NCBI GenBank assembly: GCA_009840625.1
Contig: VXNJ01000010.1
Span: 1-64,000 of the forward strand
Reading direction: 5' to 3'
Length of the DNA stretch: 64,000 nt
From: Chloroflexota bacterium
GTDB lineage: Bacteria > Chloroflexota > UBA11872 > VXNJ01
Shown here: positions 1,293-44,315 of the stretch, one piece after another
How positions within the stretch are numbered: position 1 is the first letter of the stretch
Layout of the letters: each line of letters opens with the position of its first letter
Translations under genes and position numbers: made by a program
Notes under the pieces: generated by a model
What the model was told of the DNA's origin: nothing
The model's input: only the letters and a program-made list of their open reading frames with translations
The model's database searches: none

Positions 1293-4200
1293 ATGGCTCT
1301 TACCAACGTTGAACGGGTGGGCAAGGCGCTTGAACTGGTCCGTGATGGACTAATCGCGCCGGTCGATCGCGCGCTCGTTTCCTTTATTGGACCCGATTGG
1401 CCTAACAAAGTTTCTTCAACTTCAGGACATCCAACCCGACGCGCCAACCGAGCGGACCTCTCGCTGTTGATTTCCGGAATCATCGCCCCTGACCTGTGGC
1501 GCAATTTATGGTCCAGGCAGTTCTCAAATGGACACCGCTCGCTGGTTTTTGAACTGCGCGACGTGCGAAACCGCTGGGCCCACCAGGAGGCTTTCAGTTC
1601 CGACGACGCATATCGGGCCTTGGACACGATGGAGCGGGTCCTAGAGGCTTTTCGGGCGCCCGAGCAGCGCACTCAGATCAGATCATTGCGGATCGAATTG
1701 CAGCGCCAGGTATTCGATGCGGAGCGGCGAACCCAGCAGCGTCGCGTCGAACGGCAGACCAGTGGCGAACCCGAATCTGGCTTGAGTTCCTGGCGAGACG
1801 TGATTGCCCCACACGAGGACGTTGCGGCCAATCGCTTCGAGGAGGCCGAGTTCGCCGCAGACCTGCACGCCGTGCACTCGGGCGATGCTGATTCCCAGTA
1901 CCTTAATCCGCGCACGTTTTTTGCCCGCACGTATTTGACCCAAGGGCTGCGCGGTCTGATCACCGGAGCAGCCAAACGCCTGTCCGGTCGCGGCGGCGAT
2001 CCGGTCGTGGAATTACAGACCAATTTCGGCGGTGGCAAGACCCACAGCCTCATTGCGCTCTATCACCTCGCTTCTGGGATAAATGCTGCCGAACTTCCCG
2101 GGGTCGGGGAAGCGCTGGCCGAGGAAGATTTGCAATTGCCGGGGAAAGTTGCACGGGCGGTGCTGGTCGGCACGCAACTCCAGGCGGGCGACCCCATTAC
2201 GGTAGCTCCCGGCATAACGCTCAACACTCTCTGGGGACACATGGCCTGGCAGCTCGGCGGTCGCGAAGGGTACGAGGTCGTACGCCAGGCCGACGAGACT
2301 GGAACCAACCCCGGTGAATCCCTGGCGCGGCTGTTCCAGATGTGCAGCCCTGCGCTAATCCTCATCGATGAGTGGGTGGCGTATGCCCGCGACCTGCGCG
2401 ATCCCGGTGACGGCGAACGGCTTCCGGGCGGGTACTTTGATACCCAATTCACCTTCGCCCAGGCGCTGACCGAAAACGTTGAGCGGGTCCAGGGAGTGAT
2501 GGCGCTGGTGTCGGTTCCGTCTTCGGATCTGGAGGTTGGTGGACGTAGGGGACAGTTAGCCCTGGACAGATTACATAACGTGATTGCCCGCAAGGCCTCG
2601 CAGTGGCAGCCAGCCCAAGCCGACGAGTCGTTCGAGATCGTCAGGCGCCGGTTGTTCGATGAGATTTCACCTGAAGGCGCCCGTGAACGCGACTTGGTGA
2701 TCGACTCCTACTTGCGGATGTATCGGCGTCACCGACAGGAATTTCCTGCCGAAGCCGCAGAGCCTCTTTACCGTGAACGGATGCTGGCCACGTACCCTGT
2801 CCACCCGGCACTGTTTGATCACCTGTTCAGCCAGTGGTCGTCGCTGGACAAATTTCAACGCACCCGCGGTGTGCTGCGGTTGATGGCACTTGCGATAGCC
2901 GAATTGTGGCGTTCTACAGACAAATCACTGTTGATCATGCCGGGAACTCTGCCGATTCACGCCAGCGCGTTCTCTTCAGAACTGAAGAAGTACCTTGAGG
3001 ACGGCTGGGACCCGGTGATCAAATCCGACGTGGACGGAAAGAACTCAGAACCCGACAAGATCGACTCCGAGCATCGCCATTTCGGTCGATATTCGGCGGC
3101 GCGCCGTGTGGCCCGAACCGTCTATATGGGATCCGCACCAGGCCAAGCCGGCAACCAGCGTATCGACGTTGGGCAAGTTGCTCTTGGTTCGGTCCAGCCG
3201 GGCGAGCCGCCAACGCAATTTCGCGATGCGTTATCTGAACTAGCCCGCCGGTCGAATCATCTCTACGTCGACGGAGGACAGTACTGGTATTCGCTGCAGC
3301 CCAACGTAACCCGCATGGCCAACGAACGCGCCGTCTCGAATTTTTCCGACGCCGACGCAGACTTGCTGATTCGCGATTTGATCGCTGTCCAGCGCGACCG
3401 TGGACCATTCGCGGGAGTTCATCCGTTTGCTTCCGGACCCGGCGATGTCGACGACCGCGACGACGGAGTACGGCTGGTTATCCTGGACCCCGAATTCACC
3501 CATTCCGGACGGGATACGGATTCGGTGGCGGTGCGCTTGGCTGAACACATATTGGGCCAGCGATCGGCCGGGCCGCGCGTCAACCGCAACCTGCTGGTGT
3601 TCGTGGCCGCTGATTCGGAACGCCTTGCCGAGCTTCGCCAGGCCGCACGGCTACTGCTGGCTTGGCGGTCAATCGTTGCTGATGCCGAACGGCTGGACCT
3701 CACTCCTCATCAACAGGCCCAGGCCCGGGACCGGCAAGGTGATGCTAAAACCCGCGTGGACAGCCTTCTGGCGCAGACGTTTCGCCATCTGCTCTCGCCC
3801 TCTCAGCGACCCGGTTCGTCCGACGTTGAATGGCAGGTCGGTCTGCTCAGGTCAGAGGGGCCGATTGCAGCAATGGCGGCCGCGCGCCTGGAGTCCGACG
3901 AGCGTCTGATTACCGCTTATAGCCCGCGCCGGATTCGGATGGACCTGGACGATCACCGGCTGTGGAACCAGCAGCAGCGCATCGTAGTATCTGCGCTCTG
4001 GCAAGCCTATTGCCGCTATCCGTACCTTGCGCGGCTTTCTTCCCGGCACGTACTGGTTACAGCGATCGCCCAGATCGACGAGCAACTGATACCGGATGAC
4101 CTCTTTGGCTACGAACCCGAGGGGCCGATCAACGTGCACACTTGGCTCGTCCACCCTTCGCAGATTGAATCTGGCAACGGCGGTGGGGGTGGCGAAGAAG

Positions 4201-4469
4201 AAGTAAACGGTGGGGGCGATGATCCCCCGGAGGGCGACGCAAGGTCCAACCCGACTCGATTCTTCGGGAATTTCGAACTCGATCCGTTGCGCGCCAACGC
4301 TCAGTTTCCCGAAATCGTCGACGCCATCGTAGCTCACCTTGGTGAGGACGTAAGCATATTGGTCGATGTGACGGGCCACGAACCTGACGGTTACGACGAA
4401 AACGCCCGTCGGACCATCAGCGAGAACGCCAGCCAACTCGGTGGCAAGCAAGTGGAATTCAACGATTGA
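1293..4469 (+). CDS. DUF499 ATPase with N-terminal Swt1-like HEPN domain
   Basis: A large protein (1058 aa) of the DUF499 family. Residues 1-125 resemble the Swt1-like HEPN domain and contain an R-x4-H motif (R92 to H97, RNRWAH). The ATPase core has a Walker A-like NFGGGKTHS with K249 and a Walker B LILIDEW with D359. A Gly/Glu-rich linker near residue 970 leads to a small C-terminal domain, as is common in this family. It lies 29 bp downstream of the DUF1156 methylase and was probably co-transcribed. Such pairs are annotated as anti-phage associated, with the ATPase as the presumed effector or motor. No helicase or other partner is visible, because the upstream side is cut off and the next large gene is on the opposite strand. 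Family call is confident; function is inferred from context. Confidence 0.88.
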   Translation: MALTNVERVGKALELVRDGLIAPVDRALVSFIGPDWPNKVSSTSGHPTRRANRADLSLLISGIIAPDLWRNLWSRQFSNGHRSLVFELRDVRNRWAHQEAFSSDDAYRALDTMERVLEAFRAPEQRTQIRSLRIELQRQVFDAERRTQQRRVERQTSGEPESGLSSWRDVIAPHEDVAANRFEEAEFAADLHAVHSGDADSQYLNPRTFFARTYLTQGLRGLITGAAKRLSGRGGDPVVELQTNFGGGKTHSLIALYHLASGINAAELPGVGEALAEEDLQLPGKVARAVLVGTQLQAGDPITVAPGITLNTLWGHMAWQLGGREGYEVVRQADETGTNPGESLARLFQMCSPALILIDEWVAYARDLRDPGDGERLPGGYFDTQFTFAQALTENVERVQGVMALVSVPSSDLEVGGRRGQLALDRLHNVIARKASQWQPAQADESFEIVRRRLFDEISPEGARERDLVIDSYLRMYRRHRQEFPAEAAEPLYRERMLATYPVHPALFDHLFSQWSSLDKFQRTRGVLRLMALAIAELWRSTDKSLLIMPGTLPIHASAFSSELKKYLEDGWDPVIKSDVDGKNSEPDKIDSEHRHFGRYSAARRVARTVYMGSAPGQAGNQRIDVGQVALGSVQPGEPPTQFRDALSELARRSNHLYVDGGQYWYSLQPNVTRMANERAVSNFSDADADLLIRDLIAVQRDRGPFAGVHPFASGPGDVDDRDDGVRLVILDPEFTHSGRDTDSVAVRLAEHILGQRSAGPRVNRNLLVFVAADSERLAELRQAARLLLAWRSIVADAERLDLTPHQQAQARDRQGDAKTRVDSLLAQTFRHLLSPSQRPGSSDVEWQVGLLRSEGPIAAMAAARLESDERLITAYSPRRIRMDLDDHRLWNQQQRIVVSALWQAYCRYPYLARLSSRHVLVTAIAQIDEQLIPDDLFGYEPEGPINVHTWLVHPSQIESGNGGGGGEEEVNGGGDDPPEGDARSNPTRFFGNFELDPLRANAQFPEIVDAIVAHLGEDVSILVDVTGHEPDGYDENARRTISENASQLGGKQVEFND

Positions 4470-4593
4470 AGGCGCTACTCAGGAAGTAGTTTCACAGCTT
4501 GTAGCCGGATTGGCGTCGAATTCGTCCGACCAAAACCCTATAGCCGCGTTGGAATTGGACCCAACCGCACGGAGGGTGCCCGACGACGTTTGA
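4441..4593 (+). CDS. Small hypothetical ORF overlapping the DUF499 gene end
   Basis: A 50-codon frame starts with GTG inside the last 29 bases of the DUF499 gene and ends in TGA. The product begins MASKWNSTIEG and is polar with one amphipathic stretch; I recognise no family. Support is indirect: its overlap with the upstream gene and a TTGA stop/start overlap with the next frame imitate the coupling used elsewhere in the window. There is no clear ribosome-binding site. It could be a small defence-locus gene, the remnant start of a lost downstream gene, or chance. Confidence 0.3.
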   Translation: MASKWNSTIEGATQEVVSQLVAGLASNSSDQNPIAALELDPTARRVPDDV

Positions 4594-4784
4594 TCAGTCG
4601 TCAAGCCACCGGATCAAGATCCGTGCGCAATCACGAATTGTTCGAACCGAGCTTGCCCGTCGGCGTTCCAATTCGATCCGAATGCGACCGCCGAAAATTC
4701 GCCGCTACCCAGGCTACCGACCACCCAATACAGTGGATTGAAGCGCTAGAAATAAATGAGATTAGCTCTAGTCGCACCTATTGA
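4590..4784 (+). CDS. Small hypothetical ORF, TTGA-coupled to the preceding frame
   Basis: A 64-residue frame starts with TTG, which overlaps the TGA of the preceding small ORF. The translation is compositionally reasonable (HELFEPSLPVG, ATDHPIQWIEALE) but matches no family I know. Together with the previous frame it fills the gap between DUF499 and the convergent membrane-protein gene. It may be a genuine small gene of the defence locus or part of a decayed one. Confidence 0.25.
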   Translation: MISRQATGSRSVRNHELFEPSLPVGVPIRSECDRRKFAATQATDHPIQWIEALEINEISSSRTY

Positions 4785-4870
4785 AAGTCCCATTTCGGGA
4801 AGCATTTTTGGCCGCAGCCGGTTGCGGTAGTTGACGGAATCGCGGCTAGAAGAGCACTCCGAATTGGACG

Positions 4871-6787
4871 TCAAGACCCATCCTGATTGACCTGTGACCG
4901 CAAGCGCTGTTTCCAATCGTGGGCACCGAATATTCCCGCAACGGCTAGTGCGGACAAAACTCCGAATGCTAGTTGAGGGCCGTTCATGAAGTCGCCGGCA
5001 ATGGCAAAGGCTGTTTCAATCGAGTAATCGCTTGCCAGGATTGCTGTATCTGAAAAAGACCCGGCATCCGAAACATCCACTTCTGACTTAGCTAGCTCCT
5101 CAGCGGCTCCCAATCCAATTTCAAATGCGGGCCAGAAGATTACCAACCAGAACAGGCTCGGCGCAAGAAGGATGGCCGAAGCCCAAAGCAACCGACTCGG
5201 TCCGGTATTGCCGGCAAGTAGACCCGCAATCAGGAGCAGAGCCGCCGCCACGGCGATAGAGACCAATACACCGCGACGATATTCGGCGACCCAGTTCCGG
5301 AATTCTTCCAACTCTGCTGCAGCGTCCGCCGCGAATCCTTCAGACGAAGAACCGTCCGCCGAGATCACTATTCCGTCGGCAAAAAACGAGCGAAACTCGT
5401 CGAATTCTTCAAGGTCTCCGGCGCTTTCCAGATCAGCGCGCATATCGAGATGCGTGTATTCGAATCCCTCGCCGACCAGGTTTCGCCAATCGTCGATTGA
5501 TTCGAACGATCCGGCGCCGGCAACGAGATCGGTTGCATCATTCAGATCCGATTCCGAGAACGCGATACGGTCTGGAATGGCATCTAACACCTGGTCGCTG
5601 GCCGCGGTCGCAGTCTCGGCGTAGCTCTGGTCCAGCAACTCCTCCGGAGTCACCTCGGGAGGCAGGCACGTCGGCAGAGTTGGGGGACTTTCCCCCGCGA
5701 CGGCACCGATCGAGTCCGTTTGGCCTGAGCATTGCGGGAGCGATTCGAGTTCTGTCAGGATTTGCCCGCGTACCAGGGATTCAAGTTCGGATCTGGCCGA
5801 GTCCTTGGTCGCAGTGAAGTCGAATTGGGTGCTGAAGCCATCACTGCGCCCGGCCAGGTAACCGCCCAATTCGTTCGCAAAGGAGTCAAGCTGGCGCTCG
5901 ATCGACCCAGAGGAGGAATCACTCAGAATCGCGGCGGCAACTGCTTCGGGGGGCGGTGTAAAACCGAGCTGCGGGTCTTCGATCGAATTGATTTCGTCGG
6001 CGATCGCGGGGGTGAGCACGTGCGTTCGGACGAGGCCCACCAGCTCTTCTCCCGGAAGCGTTTCTGCAACTTCGCTGGCGACAACTGCGGCTTGCGATTC
6101 CGATAGGCCCACCCGGATCGCAAAACCTTCAGATTCGCCGAACACGTAGTCGACTACCGGAACCGCGACTTCTTCAACCGTCGCAGCCAACCAGCCAGGG
6201 GTGATGACTTGACGCACGATCTGAGCAACGAATTCAGGGTCGGCCGACAACGCGTCCTCGGAGTATTCGCCGACGGCCGGCAAGATCTCAGCGTCGACTA
6301 CCCACTCGTAGAACCCGCCTTGACACAAGAGGTCCAACCCACCGCGCAGCAGGCCGCGGGCGACCGGTCCGGCGTCGAATCGAATCCGGGCCTCGTCCTG
6401 CTCGGCGGTAACGTATCCGACAAACTCCAAGATCGCCGGTTCGACCAATGCCTGCAATTGTTCGGGCGAAAGCCCCTGGTGGACGGCATCAACGATTTGT
6501 TCGGCAGTGAGATCCGACTCTTCTAGAAATCGTTCTGCCTCAGACGACTCAAGCGCCTCCGCCGGGGAATTCAGGGCATCGCGGGCCGCCGATTCAAGAA
6601 GGTCGACCATCAAGAACTCGTAAACGCCGCGATCGCGCAGTTGGTCGGTGTAGTAGTTGGCGCTGAGAAGCGTCTGATCGAACCTGACTGCGAATACCGC
6701 CACCGGCAACGCCAGCGCAAAAACCATCCCGATCAGGACGGCAGCGAAGCGGCGCAGCGTCAACATCGCAAGGCGGCGATTCGGCAA
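4871..6787 (-). CDS. Large membrane-anchored protein of unknown function
   Basis: A 638-residue protein with one N-terminal hydrophobic helix (about residues 9-33), a long acidic extracytoplasmic region of roughly 480 residues rich in Glu, Ala and Ser, then three hydrophobic segments at the C terminus (starting GVLVSIAVAAALL, LLWASAILLAPSLF and AFGVLSALAVAG). After the first helix the motif FDQTLLSANYYTDQL recalls uncharacterised membrane proteins found in Chloroflexota. No catalytic motif is visible. The start could be at 6787 or seven codons later (MLTLRR). It is transcribed alone, convergent to the DUF499 locus and divergent from the next gene. A surface or sensory role is possible but unsupported. 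Confidence 0.75.
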   Translation of the reverse strand: MPNRRLAMLTLRRFAAVLIGMVFALALPVAVFAVRFDQTLLSANYYTDQLRDRGVYEFLMVDLLESAARDALNSPAEALESSEAERFLEESDLTAEQIVDAVHQGLSPEQLQALVEPAILEFVGYVTAEQDEARIRFDAGPVARGLLRGGLDLLCQGGFYEWVVDAEILPAVGEYSEDALSADPEFVAQIVRQVITPGWLAATVEEVAVPVVDYVFGESEGFAIRVGLSESQAAVVASEVAETLPGEELVGLVRTHVLTPAIADEINSIEDPQLGFTPPPEAVAAAILSDSSSGSIERQLDSFANELGGYLAGRSDGFSTQFDFTATKDSARSELESLVRGQILTELESLPQCSGQTDSIGAVAGESPPTLPTCLPPEVTPEELLDQSYAETATAASDQVLDAIPDRIAFSESDLNDATDLVAGAGSFESIDDWRNLVGEGFEYTHLDMRADLESAGDLEEFDEFRSFFADGIVISADGSSSEGFAADAAAELEEFRNWVAEYRRGVLVSIAVAAALLLIAGLLAGNTGPSRLLWASAILLAPSLFWLVIFWPAFEIGLGAAEELAKSEVDVSDAGSFSDTAILASDYSIETAFAIAGDFMNGPQLAFGVLSALAVAGIFGAHDWKQRLRSQVNQDGS

Positions 6788-29187: not shown

Positions 29188-31425
29188 TCAATCCATATCA
29201 AGTTGTATCGGCAATTCAATCACCGGAATCAAAGGCGCTAGTCGAGCTTCGTATTGCCGGACAACCTCGTTATACAAGTCGTCGGCCCTCGGAACATTAA
29301 TGGTCAAAACTAGCGCATACCGGATTTTTCTCGCGGAGGATGTGCTGCCGCCTTTTGATCGAGCAACGTAGTGGATGTCGAACACCGGTTCTTTCAAGCT
29401 AGAAAGTCTTTTTCTTTTGCGGCGATGCAGCGTCGTTTCCCACTTGTGTGCATCCCTTCGGAGTTGATGCTCATTCGCGTACAGCCCACCAGGTCGAAAG
29501 AAAGATTCCGATTTTGGGTGAAGTGAATCATCCCGCGCGAACTTGTACCGATGGGGTCTAAACACAACCGAGAGTCCGCTCTTGGTGTAACTGCCTGGGT
29601 GTTCCGGGTCGATTTGCGTCGCAAAGCAAAAAGTGGCGGTTATTTCTGCAAACCCAGGAGCGTCAATTTCAGGTAGCGGGATGTGGACTCGTTTGTATTT
29701 GGCTGCGCTAATTACGTCTTGATAGACAATGCGCACGCCGTTGTCGGGACATATGACCATTTCGTCTAACGTGTCCGGCAGTTTGCCCCAACCAATTTCC
29801 GACCTCTCAAATGTCCCGGGTTGAGTGCAATGAATCAGTAGCGCCTTTATGGCCAAAGGACTTAGAACAGCGCCAAAGTGCGTCCGCACCGCAATGGCCG
29901 ACCGCATGGTAAGAGGCGACGCAAAGCTCGTACCTTGCAAAGCGGACGCCTTCCCTGGATTCAAGCTGTCTACTGCCCAGAATGGCTCCATGTCGCTCCC
30001 CCCGAACGCAATCAGGTCGGGTTTCACAATCCCGGGTGACCTTCCTGGGCCAATCGAACTGTACGCCGCTCTCTCCCAGCCGTCTCGTGTCGATTTGTTA
30101 CTCGCACCAACAGTGATTCCATTTACACAATCTGATGGAACTTGGACTCGCCACGGCTTAAGCGCATTGAATGAAGGCTCGTCCCCTGTGTTCCCAGCAG
30201 CGATGGCCATGAATGACCTTCCATCGGACAAGTGTTCGTCCAGTACGGCCGTCCAAGCGTGAACTTCGTTGTCGTCAATCGGCAATTCAGGTCCGATGCT
30301 CAAGTTGACGTATTCGTGGCCCCCCTGGCCCAACACAGATTCGACGCGCTTTAGTACTTCATACAGCTCATACGGATCGTTTTCAGATTCCTTGTCGAGC
30401 ACCCGGAAGTGGTCTACGCGGCAAAGTGGCGAATCAGGAGTAGCAGATGCGATTGAGCCAAACAACAACGCAGACGTAACTCGTTCGCCGTGTGCCAAAT
30501 ACTCGATTCCGGGTTCCCCCACACCAGGTACGTCACGAACATTCGCCCACCGATTTAGGGGGCTGTCGGAAGGCATCCCTCCGTCCAAGATTGCCACCCG
30601 AATCCCAGGATCCACTGCGGGCTTTATAGGAAGTTCGATTCGTTTAGGTTCGTAGACAACTGAAAGCGTTTTCTGCCCCACACGCAGCCTTGGCATCTCG
30701 CGCAATACCCGCAGGAATGAGAAACGCGCCACTTCTTGAGCTTCTGAGGGATTCGCGTGAATTCGGAGGAAGCACAAATTTCCAGCAAAAAACACGTTTT
30801 CGAAATCCCATTCCAAGCCCAACTCTTGGAGGTAAAACTTTAGGCCGGCCAAAATAAATCGGTCGCGCTCGTGCTCGCTGGCGTGCAGCACAACCTCAAG
30901 CAATAAACGATCAGGTTCGCTTGGTAATTGGCGGAGTCGGGACTCCGCGTCAACAGCCGCAATTGTTTCGAGTTTTGTTAAATGCCTGGCTGCAGGATGA
31001 ATTCTTGACCAATTTGGAATGCTCAGCGACAACGACCTAAACGCTGACCTTTTGCCAGCGACAAACAATTCGGTCGATACATCGGAATCACGTGCGGATT
31101 TGCGTGTCTGTTTCTCCGGTGAGACTGAGACTGACCGGCTCCCAATCGTTCGCAACCCCAGCCTTTCCAGGGCTCCTGCCGGTGAGTACGACTTTGCCAG
31201 GTATTCGGGGTGAAGCACGATTGAAGCAACCGACTCACCGCTCGGGCATACGCTTGCAGGCAACCGATCCAATGAGTTCGCAGTGTTGGCCAACATTGCC
31301 GATACACGTTGCTTCGCTTCGGCAAATTCATATGGAGGTTTCTTGGGCCCACCGCCTTCTTTGACTTCAATTTGTTCGGTGAGAGTTTCGCCATATCCAA
31401 GCAAATAATTCCGCCGGCTGGCCAT
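29188..31425 (-). CDS. ietS: S8 subtilisin-like serine protease, IetS-like
   Basis: A large subtilase, 745 residues from the ATG at 31425 (11 more if the ATG at 31458 is used). The catalytic triad is intact: Asp in RVAILDGGMP, His in AHGERV and Ser in GTSFASP, with the oxyanion Asn in AIAAGNTGDE. An N-terminal region of about 270 residues precedes the protease domain and a beta-rich region of about 220 residues follows. There is no signal peptide, so it acts in the cytoplasm. The ATPase gene lies directly upstream, with stop TAA and start ATG one base apart. An AAA ATPase plus S8 protease is the make-up of IetAS, known from plasmid incompatibility and later reported as a phage-defence system. 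Confidence 0.85.
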   Translation of the reverse strand: MASRRNYLLGYGETLTEQIEVKEGGGPKKPPYEFAEAKQRVSAMLANTANSLDRLPASVCPSGESVASIVLHPEYLAKSYSPAGALERLGLRTIGSRSVSVSPEKQTRKSARDSDVSTELFVAGKRSAFRSLSLSIPNWSRIHPAARHLTKLETIAAVDAESRLRQLPSEPDRLLLEVVLHASEHERDRFILAGLKFYLQELGLEWDFENVFFAGNLCFLRIHANPSEAQEVARFSFLRVLREMPRLRVGQKTLSVVYEPKRIELPIKPAVDPGIRVAILDGGMPSDSPLNRWANVRDVPGVGEPGIEYLAHGERVTSALLFGSIASATPDSPLCRVDHFRVLDKESENDPYELYEVLKRVESVLGQGGHEYVNLSIGPELPIDDNEVHAWTAVLDEHLSDGRSFMAIAAGNTGDEPSFNALKPWRVQVPSDCVNGITVGASNKSTRDGWERAAYSSIGPGRSPGIVKPDLIAFGGSDMEPFWAVDSLNPGKASALQGTSFASPLTMRSAIAVRTHFGAVLSPLAIKALLIHCTQPGTFERSEIGWGKLPDTLDEMVICPDNGVRIVYQDVISAAKYKRVHIPLPEIDAPGFAEITATFCFATQIDPEHPGSYTKSGLSVVFRPHRYKFARDDSLHPKSESFFRPGGLYANEHQLRRDAHKWETTLHRRKRKRLSSLKEPVFDIHYVARSKGGSTSSARKIRYALVLTINVPRADDLYNEVVRQYEARLAPLIPVIELPIQLDMD

Positions 31426-31426
31426 G

Positions 31427-32587
31427 TTATCTGCCGCTGACCGACTGTTCGTGGACATATTTGCGAATGGTGTCTCGACTTACACCGGTGGTTCTACTTG
31501 CCTCCCGTTGCGACATTAGCCCTTCAGACACAATTGCGATTGCGAGATTGCGGCGCATATTCGTGGGAGCAGATCTCGCGATTTGACTCAGGATTTCGAC
31601 AGACCCGACTTCAATGCTGCAATCCTCGATTGCGGTATATCGTCGCACTCTATCCACGACGTGGCGAACTTGGCTCAACGATTCGCCATCCAAGGCATGC
31701 GCGAACAATTCGGGCCAAGGATCCGATTTTTTAAACTTCATCTGATTTCTGACGTAAGACCCAATCAACTCTCTTTCTGGAAGCGGAAACTCAACAATGA
31801 GTTCGAATCTACGCCAAACTGCAGGGTCTAACAATTTCGAGTGATTGGTCGCCGCTAACAACAGGCCCCGTGCGGGCCACTCATCGATTTCCTGAAGTAA
31901 AACTGTAACTAGTCTTTTCAGCTCCCCAATTTCCCCCACGTCATCGCGCCGCTTAGCAACAGCGTCAAGCTCGTCCAGCAAAAGAACACACTCCCGGCTT
32001 CTAGCGAAATCCAGGACCGCACGTAGGTTATTGCCGGTTCGCCCAAGAAACGAACTCATCACAGCCGACAAATCAAGAATCGCGAGTGGCCGCTTAAGTT
32101 CACGGGCTACCCACTTCGCTGCTAGCGTCTTGCCAACTCCCGGCGGACCGATGAACAATGCGGTCCTCGTAGGGTCAATCCCCGATTCCGCAAGTGCGCT
32201 TGCACTGATCCTCTCGCGCACGATTTGATTCAAAAGTCCCCACACGCGCGATACGTATATGGGTTCTATTTCCAGAGTTGGAGTTTCCAAGACTCGAATC
32301 AACGGTAATCGCGAATTGCCATCAAGTGGAATACCGGAAGATTCGATTTGACGCGTCGAATCTCCTTTAACCGGCGCATTCCTCAGGAGCGCCATCAATC
32401 GATCCGCAAATTCGGGATTCGTTGAACGGCATTCCCTGGCCAAATTTCGCAATTGCAATACCAAGTCTCGCTTCTTCCCCTTCAACGCGATTTGCGACAA
32501 GTGGAATAATCGTTCTTGCCATTCCTCCGTATCGTCCACACCTATGTGACTGTCGGAATTTCCTTGAGAACCTTCCATCCGTCGCAC
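31427..32587 (-). CDS. ietA: AAA+ ATPase, IetA-like, with C-terminal helix-turn-helix
   Basis: An AAA+ ATPase of 386 residues (GTG start at 32587; an ATG nine bases later is possible). Walker A is GPPGVGKT (147-154), Walker B is CVLLLDELDA (200-209), sensor-1 Asn is in AATNHS and the arginine finger in WRRFE. A helical N-terminal domain of about 130 residues precedes the ATPase core. The C-terminal tail SQREASRTTGVSRDTIRKYV has the spacing of a DNA-binding helix-turn-helix. It is followed immediately by the subtilase gene. In the IetAS model the ATPase senses or delivers targets to the protease; the HTH tail suggests DNA or operator contact here, which is inference. Confidence 0.85.
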   Translation of the reverse strand: MRRMEGSQGNSDSHIGVDDTEEWQERLFHLSQIALKGKKRDLVLQLRNLARECRSTNPEFADRLMALLRNAPVKGDSTRQIESSGIPLDGNSRLPLIRVLETPTLEIEPIYVSRVWGLLNQIVRERISASALAESGIDPTRTALFIGPPGVGKTLAAKWVARELKRPLAILDLSAVMSSFLGRTGNNLRAVLDFARSRECVLLLDELDAVAKRRDDVGEIGELKRLVTVLLQEIDEWPARGLLLAATNHSKLLDPAVWRRFELIVEFPLPERELIGSYVRNQMKFKKSDPWPELFAHALDGESLSQVRHVVDRVRRYTAIEDCSIEVGSVEILSQIARSAPTNMRRNLAIAIVSEGLMSQREASRTTGVSRDTIRKYVHEQSVSGR

Positions 32588-33062
32588 CTGGACTACAATC
32601 AGCCATCCCTTAACATTTTAGTCCACTACGACAGATTTTCCTTTACTTGGTACAGGGTACTTTTTTGCCAATCGATCGAAATTCGCTTGCCGCCAATCAC
32701 TATCAACTATTCGATCAATAACGCATCAGCACGTTTGCATTTGCCGATTCGACCTCGGCATTCAGAATGCCATTCGCGAGCCAAAATCTACTCAATTACC
32801 GACAGTGCTCGCCGTGCCCGAATCACAAGAATTCAATGCCGTAGCGCCAATTGGCAGCACGGGCTCGCTTGGCTAGCAACGATAGCCAAATCTGTGCTGT
32901 TTCGACCGGCACACGAACGCCCAATTGAGATCAATTCGCAACCAAACTTTCCGAGGCCAGAATCTCCCGATCTTTCGCATGCACTGGACGAGTGGCACGA
33001 TGATGGTTGTGCTAGTCGTGCTATACTCGGCGAGCACAACTATCACTTGAAAGGCCTACATC
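32588..33062. other. AT-rich divergent intergenic region
   Basis: About 475 bp between the ietA-like gene and the divergent two-gene cassette. It is noticeably AT-richer than the rest of the window. Apart from the inverted repeat at 33006-33040 and the TATACT element inside it, I see no gene or repeat. Confidence 0.5.
33006..33040 (+). promoter_or_regulatory. Inverted-repeat operator candidate spanning a -10 box
   Basis: GTTGTGCT (33006-33013) and AGCACAAC (33033-33040) are perfect 8-bp inverted arms around 19 bases that include TATACT (33022-33027), a near-consensus -10 element. The cassette's start codon is at 33063. The arrangement suits binding of a regulator, possibly autoregulation by one cassette product. 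No good -35 is visible. Confidence 0.5.
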
Positions 33063-33536
33063 ATGCCTGAACCGGATGAACACCGCGCCAAAATTTCTCT
33101 AAAAGTCGGTGATGTCAGCTTCGAAGGGGAAGGGGGCCAATCCTGGCTCGACCAGCAAGTAGCGTCATTAATCGACGCAATTGGTTCCGGGAGAATCCGC
33201 AGCAACAATCCAATCGCTCCTGAATCTTCCAACGAACCGAAAGCGGCCGACCAATTTACCGAGTCGCTTGCAAGTTATTTGAGGTCAAAGGGAGGCGATT
33301 CGGTCCAGATTCAACGGTTTTTGGCTACTGCCGCATGGTTGAGCAAACGTGGCCAATCGACGCTGACAACTCGAGACGTCAGTCACGCTTTAAGAGAAAA
33401 CCAACAAAAACGATTGGGAAATGCGGCAGATAGTCTCAACAAAAACGTTTCAAAGGGGTTCTGCGAAAAATCGTCAAATGGATTTTTCATCACCCCGGAC
33501 GGTTGGGCGCACCTAGGTGAGCGCCAACCCCAGTGA
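33063..33536 (+). CDS. Small conserved protein of a two-gene cassette (KVGDVSFEGEG family)
   Basis: A soluble protein of 157 residues. The N-terminal segment KISLKVGDVSFEGEGG, followed by WLDQQVASLIDA, is a pattern I recall from small uncharacterised bacterial proteins encoded next to the type of protein that follows here. The C-terminal half (residues 70-150) looks like a helical, winged-helix-like domain. There is no signal peptide or membrane segment. The stop codon overlaps the GTG start of the next gene (GTGA), so the two are coupled. A possible operator lies upstream. I infer an antitoxin, adaptor or sensor role beside the HEPN-like partner; no function is established from sequence. Confidence 0.7.
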   Translation: MPEPDEHRAKISLKVGDVSFEGEGGQSWLDQQVASLIDAIGSGRIRSNNPIAPESSNEPKAADQFTESLASYLRSKGGDSVQIQRFLATAAWLSKRGQSTLTTRDVSHALRENQQKRLGNAADSLNKNVSKGFCEKSSNGFFITPDGWAHLGERQPQ

Positions 33537-34285
33537 TTCAACACACCGCTTTAGGTGCCCTGCCCGACAACCTTCGCAATCCGCTCATCGCCGAATACCG
33601 ACGAATCAATCAATCTTTCCTCGAACGCAGATGGTTGCCATCGGAGCTCAGCGGTGGAAGGTTCTGTGAAATCGTATACACGATTCTTGAAGGCTATGCT
33701 TAAGGCGAGTTCCCGGCCGAGCTTTCCAAGCCCCGGAACTTTGTTCGTGCTTGCCGTCAACTGGAGCAGCACGAGTGCATTCCAAGGTCTTTGCGTATCT
33801 TATTGCCCAGAATTCTTCCCGCTCTTTACGAGGTGCGCAACAATCGAGGAGTCGGCCATATCGGCGGTGATGTAGATCCCAATCACATGGATGCGGCATT
33901 TGTCGTGGCTACGAGCAGTTGGGTGTTAGGGGAATTGATCCGCGTTTTCCACCAAATTGAAATTCACGAGGCCCAATCTATCGTCGACAACCTAGTTCAA
34001 CCTCGAGTACCGTTGGTCTGGGAAGGACCACACTCGCGGCGTGTTCTTAATCCGAATTTGAGCGTTCAATCCCAGGTACTCGTGTTGCTAGCCACTACCC
34101 CCAATCCAGTAAGCACTGCCGAATTGCAGCAGTGGGTCGAATGTCGGAACACTGCATACTTCAAATCCATATTGCGCAAATTGCACAGAAATCGAATGAT
34201 TGAACTCTACCCGGATGGGAAAACCGCCGAGTTATTGCCTCCCGGATATTCCGAAGCTTCCGGAGAATTACATTCGAAGACTTAA
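33533..34285 (+). pseudogene. HEPN-like second gene of the cassette, interrupted by an in-frame TAA
   Basis: A 250-residue frame opens with a GTG overlapping the upstream stop and is interrupted only by TAA at 33701-33703 (codon 57). Before it the protein reads LPDNLRNPLIAEY and GGRFCEIVYTILEGYA; after it, in the same frame, GEFPAELSKPRNFVRACRQL and onward. Intact relatives, as I recall them, have Lys at this spot, so AAA to TAA is the simplest explanation. The later part holds YEVRNNRGVGHIGGD, an R-x6-H pattern reminiscent of HEPN and abortive-infection C-terminal domains, then a winged-helix-like C terminus (VLVLLATTPNPVSTAELQQW). A restart at TTG 33791 could still make a 164-residue fragment with the motif. 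HEPN assignment is tentative. Confidence 0.75.
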
Positions 34286-39923: not shown

Positions 39924-42900
39924 GTGATTCGTCCCCTGGCCTTGATCCTGGCGGCGGTGCTGGGCTTCAGCGGCGCGGCGCCGACCGCAGACGCGGCGAT
40001 CGTGGCGCCGCAATCGTCGCCCGCATCGGACCGGGCGGTTCTTGCCGAATTATTCGAAGCCGCCGGCGGATCGGGATGGCTCAATTCCGACAACTGGAAC
40101 AGCCCGGCCCCGCTGGATCAGTGGTACGGCCTCACCACTGATGAAGCCGGCAGGGTCACCGCAATCGCTCTGGCTTCCAACCGCCTGCGGGGGCAAATCA
40201 CGCCCGCGATCGATCAACTTCAAGGCCTCGAAGCGCTAGACCTGAGCAACAACCTGCTCCGCGGCGCGGTCCCCCTCGGACTCGGGCGGCTCCCGGCGAT
40301 CAGAACGATAAGTCTGGCCAACAACCGTTTCAGCGGTTCGATTCCGGCCGCCCTGGGCGCAGCTCCGCGACTGCAAATCCTTGACCTCTCCGGCAACCAG
40401 CTGGTCGCCGGCATCCCGGACCAGTTTTATGAGCTGAGCTCGCTCGAGCGACTCGATTTGAGCGGCAACCGACTGATCGACCGCGTCCGCCGGGAATTGG
40501 CCAACTTTTCGCGCCTGACCCACCTGGACTTGAGTCAAAACGGGTTCCATGGTCCGATTCCGGCCTCGCTCGGAACCCTGCAAAACCTCGAACGGCTGTT
40601 GATGGCGGAAAACTCGCTGTCCGGTGAAATCCCGGCCGGATTGTTCGGCATCGCAGATCTGGCGGAACTTGACCTTTCCGGCAACCGACTGAATGGACGC
40701 CTCCGAATCCCCGGCGGACCGCCCACGCGCCTGCAGCGGCTAGATCTTTCGGGCAACATCATCACCGGCCCGGTGCCGAGCGCGATCGCCAGGTTTGACG
40801 GTCTGCAGCACCTTGATCTTTCCAGCAACGTATTCAGGGGCCCGATTCCTGCGGGACTCGGCGACATGGCCGATCTGCGGGTCCTGCGGGTCGGCGGCAA
40901 TCGGTTTTCGGGCTCGCTGCCGCGGCGGCTCGGCCAGCTGGAGAACTTGACCGAGCTCTGGGCCGGCGGCAACCAGCTGACCGGCCAAATACCGGATCTC
41001 TCGGCGCTCGCGACCCTTTCGCACCTGGATTTGGGCGGCAACTCCCTCTCCGGCCCGATACCCGCCTGGCTGGCGGAGCTTTCATCACTTGAAGTGCTCG
41101 ACCTGAGCTCGAATTCGCTTACCGGGCCGCCGCCGAAGGAAATGGCCGAATTGAGCCGCGTAGTCCGGCTGGCGCTGGGAGGAAATCCGCTGACCGGCGC
41201 GATACCCGGCTGGCTCGGAGAGCTCGAGTCCCTCCAGGACCTGGACCTTGCAAACGCGAACCTGACCGCCCCGATCCCGGGCGGATTGCGATCGCTGGCG
41301 AACCTGCGGTGGGTCGATCTGGGCGGAAACCAACTGACCGGCCAGATTCCGCCGTGGTTCGGAGACTTCTCCGGACTGCAGTACCTGCGCCTGAGCGACA
41401 ACGCGCTCTCGGGGCCGATCCCGCCGAATCTTTTCTCGGTCGCTCAACTACAGGTGCTCGAGCTCGACAACAACGCTTTCAGCGGAACGATCCCGGACCG
41501 ATTCGGCGGCTTACCGGCGCTCACCCGTCTGCGGCTCAACGACAACCAGTTGAGCGGACCGATCCCGGATTCGCTGGGCAGATCATCGCGGATCAGATCG
41601 CTGCATCTGGACGGTAACCGACTGAGTGGGGAGTTGCCAGGCTGGCTGCCGGACCTGGACGCGCTTTCCGACCTGCGTCTCGGCCGCAACCGGCTCAGCG
41701 GCGAAATCCCGGACGACATCGGTCGCCTGCAATCCCTGCTCGAGCTCGGGATCGAGCGGAATCTCCTCGCCGGGCCGGTGCCCGAGTCGATCGGTTCCAT
41801 TCCTGGGCTGCTCAGTCTCGACCTGTCCGGCAACCAGCTCGAGGGCCAGATCCCGCCGTCGCTGGCGTCGCTGGCCGAACTAGAGCATCTAGACCTGAGC
41901 AACAACCGGCTTGGCGGCTCCATCCCGGCCGCGCTTGGCAATCTTGGCCGCATGCGCTGGCTAAACCTCGCCCACAACCGGCTTGAAGGATTGATCCCGG
42001 AGGAGATTGCCCAGTTGTCGCGATTGCGCGAACTGTTCCTGGAAGGGAACGGCTTCGAGGGCTGCGCCCCTAACGAGATTCGCCGCCTCCGCTCCACGAT
42101 CGACCTGCTGGAATTCGGCGGCAGACCGTTCTGCGACCTGGCCCTGAGCCTGATAAGTGTTTCGCCCGGACAAATCCGACCCGAATTCGATTCAGCCCGC
42201 CACGATTACGTCGTAGACGTTCCCGCCCCCGAGAGTTCGCGACACGTTTCGCTAAGGCTCTTCGCATACCAAGAATTGCAAGCGGTCGCGTTTCTTGACG
42301 CAAACGGTCGGATCCTTGCCGACGCCGACAGCCAGACCGGCGGCTTTCAGCTGGATATTGCCGAATTGACCGCCGATGACCTCCCGCCGCTGATGTCGGT
42401 GGAGGTGATCTCGGGGGACCTGAAATACCGCTACAGTCTGCGGTTCTCGCCCGCCCGGGCCGGGGAAGCGGGGTTGTACGCGGTGCTGGTCGATGGCCGC
42501 CCGATATTCGCCGGCATCGAGGCGGGAGAGTTTTCGCATAGGGTCGGTTTCGAACGCGGGCGGGTGCGAGTCGAACCGCTGGCGCTTGATCCCGGGGCGA
42601 CCGTGAACATCTCCCCGCCCGATGCCGATCAGGTCGCCGAAAACGGCCACCAGGTCGACCTGGCGGTCGGTGCGAACAGCATCCTGATCGAGGTGACCCC
42701 GGCCGACGGTCAAAACGGGCGCGGATTCGAGCTGGCCCTGGAGCGCCTGGCCCCGGACCGTGACATCCTGATCCGGCTCTATGAAACCACCGGCGGCCCC
42801 GCATGGTCCCGAAGCGAGGGATGGCTGTCCGAAGATCCACTCGGCGATTGGCACGGGGTCAACACCGACAACGCCGGTCGCGTCGTCGAGCTCGAGTTGG

Positions 42901-44315
42901 GCGACAACGGGTTGAGCGGCCCGTTGCCGGCCGCGATCGCCGACCTTGTCCGGTTGCGGAATCTCGACCTCAGAAAAAACCGCCTGAGCGGCGAGATCCC
43001 GTCCGCCTTCGGCCAGTTGAGCGAGCTGGTGATCCTGGAACTGAGCGGCAACCGGCTTTCCGGACCCCTGCCGGACCAGGTGGCCCAATTGCCCAAACTT
43101 CTGCTGCTCTCGCTTGACGAGAACGAACTGTCCGGTCCGCTCCCGACCTCCTTCGGCAACGCCGCTGAGCTGATCGGGTTGGGGCTGGCCGGCAACGAGT
43201 TCACCGGGCCCGTCCCCGAGTCGTTCGGGAATCTGCCGGCCCTGGGGACATTGCGCCTCGCCGGCAACCGATTGGGGGGCTGTCTGCCGGCAACGCTCCG
43301 CGCCGACGTATTGCAGTACCACGATTTCGCCCGGCTCGGGCTTTCTTTCTGCGACGTCGGAATCCGTGCGCTGCCGCTGAACCTCGGCCGATTGCTGCCC
43401 GCTTTTTCGCCGGGCGACACCCGCTACCGGCTATTCGTGGAAATAGGCGACGTCTCCGCGCAACTCTCGCTGGCGCCGGAACTATTCAATGAAAGCTCCG
43501 AAGTCAGCTACCTGGGCCCGGATCTTGTCCCGCTGGTGGACGCCGATCCCCGGTCCGACGGGTTTCAGATCAATCTGTCGCGGCTGCCGCCGGACGGGGA
43601 ACCCTTAGAACTGAGCATCCGGGTTTCAAACCCGGCCTCCGAGCAGACATACAGTTTTGCGATCGAACTCGCCAAACCGGGCGAGGTTGGCCTGGAGGCG
43701 ATCGGGGTCGCCGGGCAGTTTTCCAACTATTCCATCGGTTCGAGTTACCTGCGCCGCCTGGTCAATCACCAGTCCGAACGCATCACCATTGAGCCCCGAA
43801 CGATCGACCCGGCGGCGGTTTTCGAATTCCTGGCGCCGCCGGTCGGCTCAGGCGGGCCCCTCCCGCTGCCCGATGCCGACGGCGAACCGGGCAACGGTTT
43901 CCAGTTCGATACCGCCTCGGGCCCGAACATTCTGCTGCTGCGGGTGCAGTCGGCCGATTCAAGCAGGGTTCGCATCTACGCGCTGGTGATCGTGCGCACC
44001 CCGGGCAAGCCCTCGCCGCCCGCAATAGCCGCGGTCGCGCGGAGCCCCGCTCGAACGGAGATTTACTGGTCTCCGCCGGACATTACCGGAGGAAGTCAAA
44101 TCACTGGCTACGACCTGCGCTACATATATGCCGGGACCCCAGAGAAATCCGACCGATACTGGACGATGATCGGCCGCCTGGATCCCGTCGCCGGCCTCAA
44201 TCTGGTTCTTGACGGTCTCGAGGACGATCTTTCGTACGAATTTCAGATTCGGGCCCGCAATCGCGCCGGCGCCGGCCCTTGGTCAGACGCGTTCGCGGTG
44301 GCGCCGGCGGCCTGA
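39924..44315 (+). CDS. Giant secreted leucine-rich-repeat protein with cadherin-like and FN3 domains
   Basis: A 1463-residue protein. Residues 1-24 are a Sec signal peptide (cleavage likely after TADA). A cap (FEAAGGSGWLNSDNWNSPA) leads into about 27 plant-type 24-residue LRRs (LxLxxNxLxGxIPxxL) to about residue 730, closed by a paired-Cys cap. Two cadherin-like beta-sandwich units follow. Then the same module repeats: cap (YETTGGPAWSRSEGW), six LRRs, Cys cap, two beta-sandwich units, and a final fibronectin type III domain from about residue 1360. There is no C-terminal membrane anchor or sortase motif, so it is probably released or held non-covalently. It starts with GTG and is a single gene. 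Likely roles are adhesion, or recognition of hosts, other cells or polysaccharides. Confidence 0.9.
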   Translation: MIRPLALILAAVLGFSGAAPTADAAIVAPQSSPASDRAVLAELFEAAGGSGWLNSDNWNSPAPLDQWYGLTTDEAGRVTAIALASNRLRGQITPAIDQLQGLEALDLSNNLLRGAVPLGLGRLPAIRTISLANNRFSGSIPAALGAAPRLQILDLSGNQLVAGIPDQFYELSSLERLDLSGNRLIDRVRRELANFSRLTHLDLSQNGFHGPIPASLGTLQNLERLLMAENSLSGEIPAGLFGIADLAELDLSGNRLNGRLRIPGGPPTRLQRLDLSGNIITGPVPSAIARFDGLQHLDLSSNVFRGPIPAGLGDMADLRVLRVGGNRFSGSLPRRLGQLENLTELWAGGNQLTGQIPDLSALATLSHLDLGGNSLSGPIPAWLAELSSLEVLDLSSNSLTGPPPKEMAELSRVVRLALGGNPLTGAIPGWLGELESLQDLDLANANLTAPIPGGLRSLANLRWVDLGGNQLTGQIPPWFGDFSGLQYLRLSDNALSGPIPPNLFSVAQLQVLELDNNAFSGTIPDRFGGLPALTRLRLNDNQLSGPIPDSLGRSSRIRSLHLDGNRLSGELPGWLPDLDALSDLRLGRNRLSGEIPDDIGRLQSLLELGIERNLLAGPVPESIGSIPGLLSLDLSGNQLEGQIPPSLASLAELEHLDLSNNRLGGSIPAALGNLGRMRWLNLAHNRLEGLIPEEIAQLSRLRELFLEGNGFEGCAPNEIRRLRSTIDLLEFGGRPFCDLALSLISVSPGQIRPEFDSARHDYVVDVPAPESSRHVSLRLFAYQELQAVAFLDANGRILADADSQTGGFQLDIAELTADDLPPLMSVEVISGDLKYRYSLRFSPARAGEAGLYAVLVDGRPIFAGIEAGEFSHRVGFERGRVRVEPLALDPGATVNISPPDADQVAENGHQVDLAVGANSILIEVTPADGQNGRGFELALERLAPDRDILIRLYETTGGPAWSRSEGWLSEDPLGDWHGVNTDNAGRVVELELGDNGLSGPLPAAIADLVRLRNLDLRKNRLSGEIPSAFGQLSELVILELSGNRLSGPLPDQVAQLPKLLLLSLDENELSGPLPTSFGNAAELIGLGLAGNEFTGPVPESFGNLPALGTLRLAGNRLGGCLPATLRADVLQYHDFARLGLSFCDVGIRALPLNLGRLLPAFSPGDTRYRLFVEIGDVSAQLSLAPELFNESSEVSYLGPDLVPLVDADPRSDGFQINLSRLPPDGEPLELSIRVSNPASEQTYSFAIELAKPGEVGLEAIGVAGQFSNYSIGSSYLRRLVNHQSERITIEPRTIDPAAVFEFLAPPVGSGGPLPLPDADGEPGNGFQFDTASGPNILLLRVQSADSSRVRIYALVIVRTPGKPSPPAIAAVARSPARTEIYWSPPDITGGSQITGYDLRYIYAGTPEKSDRYWTMIGRLDPVAGLNLVLDGLEDDLSYEFQIRARNRAGAGPWSDAFAVAPAA

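Follow-up and report, generated by a model that had tools for sequence, protein, structure and literature searches.

The U-H locus and its surroundings

In the window, that is, the whole stretch of 64,000 nucleotides that was analysed, two coupled genes, which we call U and H, lie behind an inverted repeat and beside an IetAS-like gene pair on the opposite strand. The features referred to below are the following.

29188..31458, minus strand, IetS-like subtilase (PADLOC 1.7e-42), not judged part of the U-H unit
31427..32587, minus strand, IetA-like AAA ATPase (PADLOC 1e-77), divergent neighbour, not judged part of the U-H unit
33001..33045, no strand, inverted repeat, likely an operator, with 13-nt arms (12/13 complementary) and a 19-nt spacer
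33063..33536, plus strand, U, intact ORF of 157 amino acids with an ATG start at 33063 and a stop ending at 33536, type T3
33533..34285, plus strand, H, GTG start at 33533, HEPN-like with a winged helix, frame disrupted
33836..33859, plus strand, RNNRGVGH codons, the HEPN-like motif inside H, conserved in relatives

The initial annotation had proposed two coupled genes with a GTGA overlap, and our analysis bears this out, GTGA being the overlap between the stop of U and the start of H. U contains LKVGDVSFEGEG. For the second protein the initial annotation gave a length of 250 residues, the motif RNNRGVGH and a tail like a winged helix. Both motif and tail are encoded, but a protein of this length is obtained on read-through only, and the frame is not open: an in-frame TAA (33701-33703) stands after 56 codons. 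The mention of an 'intact orthologue' in the initial annotation suggests that the break had been recognised there. A restart at the TTG at 33791 would give 164 residues only, with loss of the first part of the helical domain. Because the TAA interrupts the frame, the window copy of H is probably dead, with U still intact. The family motif residues are retained in it, and the stop is therefore either recent or an error.

The end branch of the window H is the longest of the H tree (1.11 vs a median of 0.43), a length that would fit decay, and what remains of the unit is probably a relic in decay, within an island where the IetAS frames are still open. We regard it as unlikely, though worth keeping in view, that the stop instead reflects a sequencing or assembly error and that the local pair is functional. 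Such an error would agree with the family-invariant residues kept downstream of the stop, with the open frames of the adjoining IetA and IetS and with the draft state of the source genome (20 contigs); however, relaxed constraint would give just such a long branch, and loss of H is seen elsewhere, in one relative by a transposase that splits the gene.

The repeat upstream of U, TGATGGTTGTGCT-19-AGCACAACTATCA, ends 17 nt before the U start and has a TATACT-like box between its arms. Because its score was above those of all 200 dinucleotide shuffles of the region (0/200 reached it), it is more than a chance arrangement. When its sequence was sought in relatives, no conserved operator was found, and similarly placed repeats of different sequence occur in some T3-type relatives.

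The block at 29.0-34.5 kb, with IetS, IetA, U and H, has a GC content of about 0.51, whereas its flanks are at about 0.60; these 5.5 kb therefore resemble a small acquired island. By PADLOC the matches of IetA and IetS are clear, but they are far below the NCBIfam cut-offs, and the pair is therefore a divergent IetAS. Both of its frames are open (29188-32587), and the subtilase triad motifs are visible in IetS. The initial annotation had taken this neighbour as support for a defence role of U-H. The adjacency itself holds in the window; as support it does not, since IetAS homologues lay near U-H in 0/81 other loci (flanks of up to 10 kb, shorter on small contigs). With no recurrence in these loci, IetAS was rejected as a functional partner, and its adjacency to U-H is incidental. 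An Rfam scan of 28-40 kb and a tRNA scan of the whole window found nothing. Further along, at 39924-44315, lies a gene for a very large leucine-rich-repeat-like protein of 1463 amino acids, beside a sulfatase-like gene.

Distribution and pairing of U and H

No fitting family was found for the window U and H in Pfam, NCBIfam or PADLOC 2.0, and a wide set of their relatives gave nothing convincing against Pfam and PADLOC. A PDB sequence search with H returned no match, and no description of the pair was found in the open-licence literature. U-H is nonetheless a genuine, widespread, unnamed two-gene family. H was present in 9 of 400 genomes of the same phylum, the window's own genome being the sole carrier among 41 genomes of its class. 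A pattern scan of species genomes with the RNxRxxxH motif gave 163 relatives, from which 80 loci were kept; this larger set, having been collected by the motif, is not independent evidence for motif conservation, and for that question the independent set consists of nine members collected without the motif, together with a Natronomonas protein.

U-H loci represent at least 19 named phyla. Of 50 genomes checked, 49 have one H gene only, and the H tree requires 33 phylum changes. On these data the distribution is patchy, and the family has moved horizontally. Annotated phage records contained no H match, and plasmid records no match to the window proteins; with a Sphingopyxis H as query, the plasmid records gave a single Natronomonas plasmid match, a distant haloarchaeal H of 28.8% identity. 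Downstream of this archaeal relative (plasmid PL131, L093, 5931-6131) a small protein is encoded that resembles the hairpin-helix end of U, without the winged helix. A viral or phage contig, L091, carries a U-H pair. On another phage-like contig, L139, a serine recombinase gene is followed by two U genes, T3 then T4 (3198-5043); other phage-like genes are also present, and the contig ends before a possible H.

The co-occurrence of the small gene with H, which the initial annotation had put forward, proved to be close to universal. In 72/81 loci the distance from the U stop to the aligned H start is at most 40 nt, and with HMMs built for the U types, U adjoins H in 79 of the 81, with no U elsewhere in those loci. 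Where U at first seemed absent, the cause was an alternative start, a stop within the frame or the shortness of the contig. The coupling is thus strict and old. According to the type HMMs, at least 10 loci carry two U's, which may share a type or differ in it. Among the divergent members found without the motif, L008 has two tandem U's and L009 has one, L007 has a different winged-helix-like gene in the U position, and L010 is interrupted by a transposase. In L010 (G310:C14) the transposase gene, IS256-like by eye, splits H.

Single-linkage BLAST joins 81 of 86 U proteins, and tighter clustering separates them into types T1-T6, at least six N-terminal types. U type follows the H tree, with 18 changes against a mean of 50.4 in shuffled data (0/200 shuffles as low); L068, with a T1 U within a T3 clade, is an example of a swap. 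Judged from these trees, U and H appear to co-evolve, with occasional partner exchange and horizontal transfer. Two loci, L026 and L046, have U frames with in-frame stops (TAG and TGA) and an intact H. Both are metagenome contigs, one at a coverage of 2.2, and the frames may be pseudogenes or sequencing errors; in L046 another U is present. A third small gene, winged-helix-like, recurs upstream of U in L016, L038 and L065.

The genes near U-H include type I and type II restriction-modification (R-M) systems, GmrSD-like genes, DarT/DarG, MzaA, HepT-like genes and Mads components, and also housekeeping genes such as those for DNA polymerase I and GatB. PADLOC families matched were 181 and 45 for near genes and 21 for genes beyond 6 kb, a rough comparison, since it counts families, not proteins, and one protein can match many models. 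The neighbourhood gives moderate support for a conflict role. Of the defence association claimed initially, the copies on phage contigs, the R-M and toxin neighbours and the patchy spread speak in its favour; on the other hand, many loci lie among housekeeping genes.

What H is

The family alignment of H has an invariant P, RNxRxxGH, D, W and R. The conservation of R and H on which the initial annotation relied is upheld by the relatives found without the motif: R, R and H of RNxRxxxH are invariant in all nine, N being replaced once (L010), and are also kept in the haloarchaeal plasmid relative from Natronomonas. The HEPN superfamily is characterised by Rx4-6H with a polar residue after R, and RNase activity is predicted where this is kept, although some HEPN proteins, e.g. 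MtlR, are non-catalytic (PMC3710099). In the nine-member set and the Natronomonas protein, H has this arrangement in the form RNxRxxxH. With the HEPN RNases (Anantharaman et al., 2013, PMC3710099) H shares a helical domain and an R followed by N, with a histidine six residues later, and U-H shares with them a conflict-type distribution; unlike them, H is unmatched by any Pfam model, including the Pfam HEPN families. In the family table of PMC3710099 no HEPN domain combines a C-terminal winged helix with a partner gene for a winged-helix protein.

An AF2 model of H, with a mean pLDDT of 91, shows a helical HEPN-like domain and a C-terminal winged helix, in agreement with the initial annotation. 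Foldseek returned MarR winged helices for the tail; for the helical part it repeatedly returned Csm6 (prob 0.85) and the HEPN structures 2hsb and 4nqf (prob 0.41-0.47), all at E values of 0.3-1.6, below significance. A search of a viral fold library gave nothing informative.

Abi_C (PF14355), the abortive-infection C-terminal domain, resembles H in its motif RN..G.GHG, which falls in register with RNNRGVGH. In hhalign, H aligned with four Abi_C proteins over about 122 columns end to end (P 0.0017), with a score of 29.4 vs 29.1 for the best of 100 column shuffles. Membership of H in this family was rejected on the Pfam scan, in which 0/40 H proteins matched (125 members scanned, E 0.01). Abi_C is rare in the genomes examined and, as far as seen, has no U partner. 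Taken together, there is good but not conclusive support for H being HEPN-like and not a member of Abi_C.

What U is

The model of the window U (mean pLDDT 82.5, above 90 in the winged helix) consists of an N-terminal hairpin-helix, a disordered linker and a C-terminal winged helix that resembles the MotA activation domain and RuvB. In T3-type U proteins the hairpin-helix has a consensus like KIEIKIGxIxFSGEGDxxWLSxQLDKI. A nucleotidyltransferase (MNT) partner was considered and rejected, as none of the U proteins matched MNT and the window U was modelled with a hairpin-helix and a winged helix. The HepT/MntA system (HEPN-MNT, type VII toxin-antitoxin) likewise has two coupled genes, one of them HEPN-like; it differs in that its partner is a nucleotidyltransferase, whereas U is a winged-helix protein, and in gene order and architecture.

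U-like proteins were also observed in two other gene pairs. In L138, from a genome of the same order, a U-like protein, IRIKMGDIELEYEGEELFLERDL, follows a type I R-M specificity gene and precedes a winged-helix-then-HEPN-like protein with RNGCGH, whose gene it overlaps (624-1358 and 1333-1845, minus strand); no Pfam family was found for this pair. In L140 (Ochrobactrum plasmid pLM19O1, 2084-3450) a U-like protein of 204 amino acids overlaps a HEPN-like protein with RNMAAH in the same arrangement, both being annotated only as hypothetical. In both pairs, as in U-H, the U-like protein comes first and overlaps the next one, which has a possible HEPN motif; in contrast to U-H, this second protein has the reversed domain order, and its HEPN reading is by motif inspection only. 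The kind of adaptor represented by U may thus serve more than one HEPN-like family.

Discussion

On balance, and with some reserve, we favour the view that the two genes form a mobile unit for immunity or suicide, in which H would be a HEPN RNase and U its sensor or restrainer. H would be a metal-independent RNase of HEPN type carrying its own winged helix, and U its small winged-helix partner, the variable N-terminal module of which would sense, or be displaced by, a signal of the invader. In the resting state U would hold H in check and repress the operon from the inverted repeat. A trigger would then release or activate H; active H would cut cellular or viral RNA, and infection would be stopped at the expense of the cell, which is the phage protection that we infer.

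Several features are toxin-antitoxin-like: the order and overlap of the genes, the winged helix of U, and the inverted repeat of the window. Two coupled genes with the small partner first are also what a type II system has. U-H might accordingly be a plain type II toxin-antitoxin pair, in which U, as a DNA-binding antitoxin, would both neutralise H and repress the operon, and whose role would lie in maintenance or stress response and not mainly in phage sensing. The 4-nt overlap, the operator-like repeat and the patchy spread are all compatible with this, and the state of the window, U intact and H lost, is a viable order of decay for such a pair. We nevertheless judge it improbable as the main explanation, since one constant H combined with at least six N-terminal types of U, and with two U's at ten loci, is more like a set of sensors, and since relatives do not share the operator. 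A sensor-effector arrangement is also the better fit for the winged helix in H itself and for the two loci where U is broken and H intact, L026 and L046, with the reservation that these are metagenome contigs in which the stops are possibly sequencing errors and that L046 has its second U.

We see still less reason to regard U and H as regulators without RNase activity, e.g. two proteins that together regulate chromosomal genes through transcription or RNA binding, an explanation that we consider quite improbable. It would account for winged helices in both proteins, for the many loci in housekeeping contexts and the single copy per genome, and non-catalytic HEPN proteins such as MtlR provide a precedent (PMC3710099). 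However, all divergent members retain the catalytic-type motif, the family is spread patchily across phyla with no constant neighbour, and copies are found on phage contigs.

The immune or suicide unit that we favour may belong to something more general. We tentatively suggest, as a possibility still short of probable, a modular sensor-HEPN platform, in which a constant HEPN-winged-helix effector would be combined with swappable and sometimes doubled U sensors; these would also serve the HEPN-like family of reversed domain order, and carriers of the platform would be bacteria and phages and, for a divergent version of it, a haloarchaeal plasmid.

In summary, the observation stands, and the initial interpretation is partly supported. 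We read U-H as a new, widespread variant of HEPN-based conflict modules, broken in the window and incidentally placed next to IetAS. If this is right, the defence-annotation models of Pfam, NCBIfam and PADLOC 2.0 lack a module that occurs in at least 19 bacterial phyla. The addition would be a pair of effector and sensor in which the sequence shows how diverse the sensors are, and the exchange of U types over a conserved H would give direct access to the triggers of HEPN RNases.
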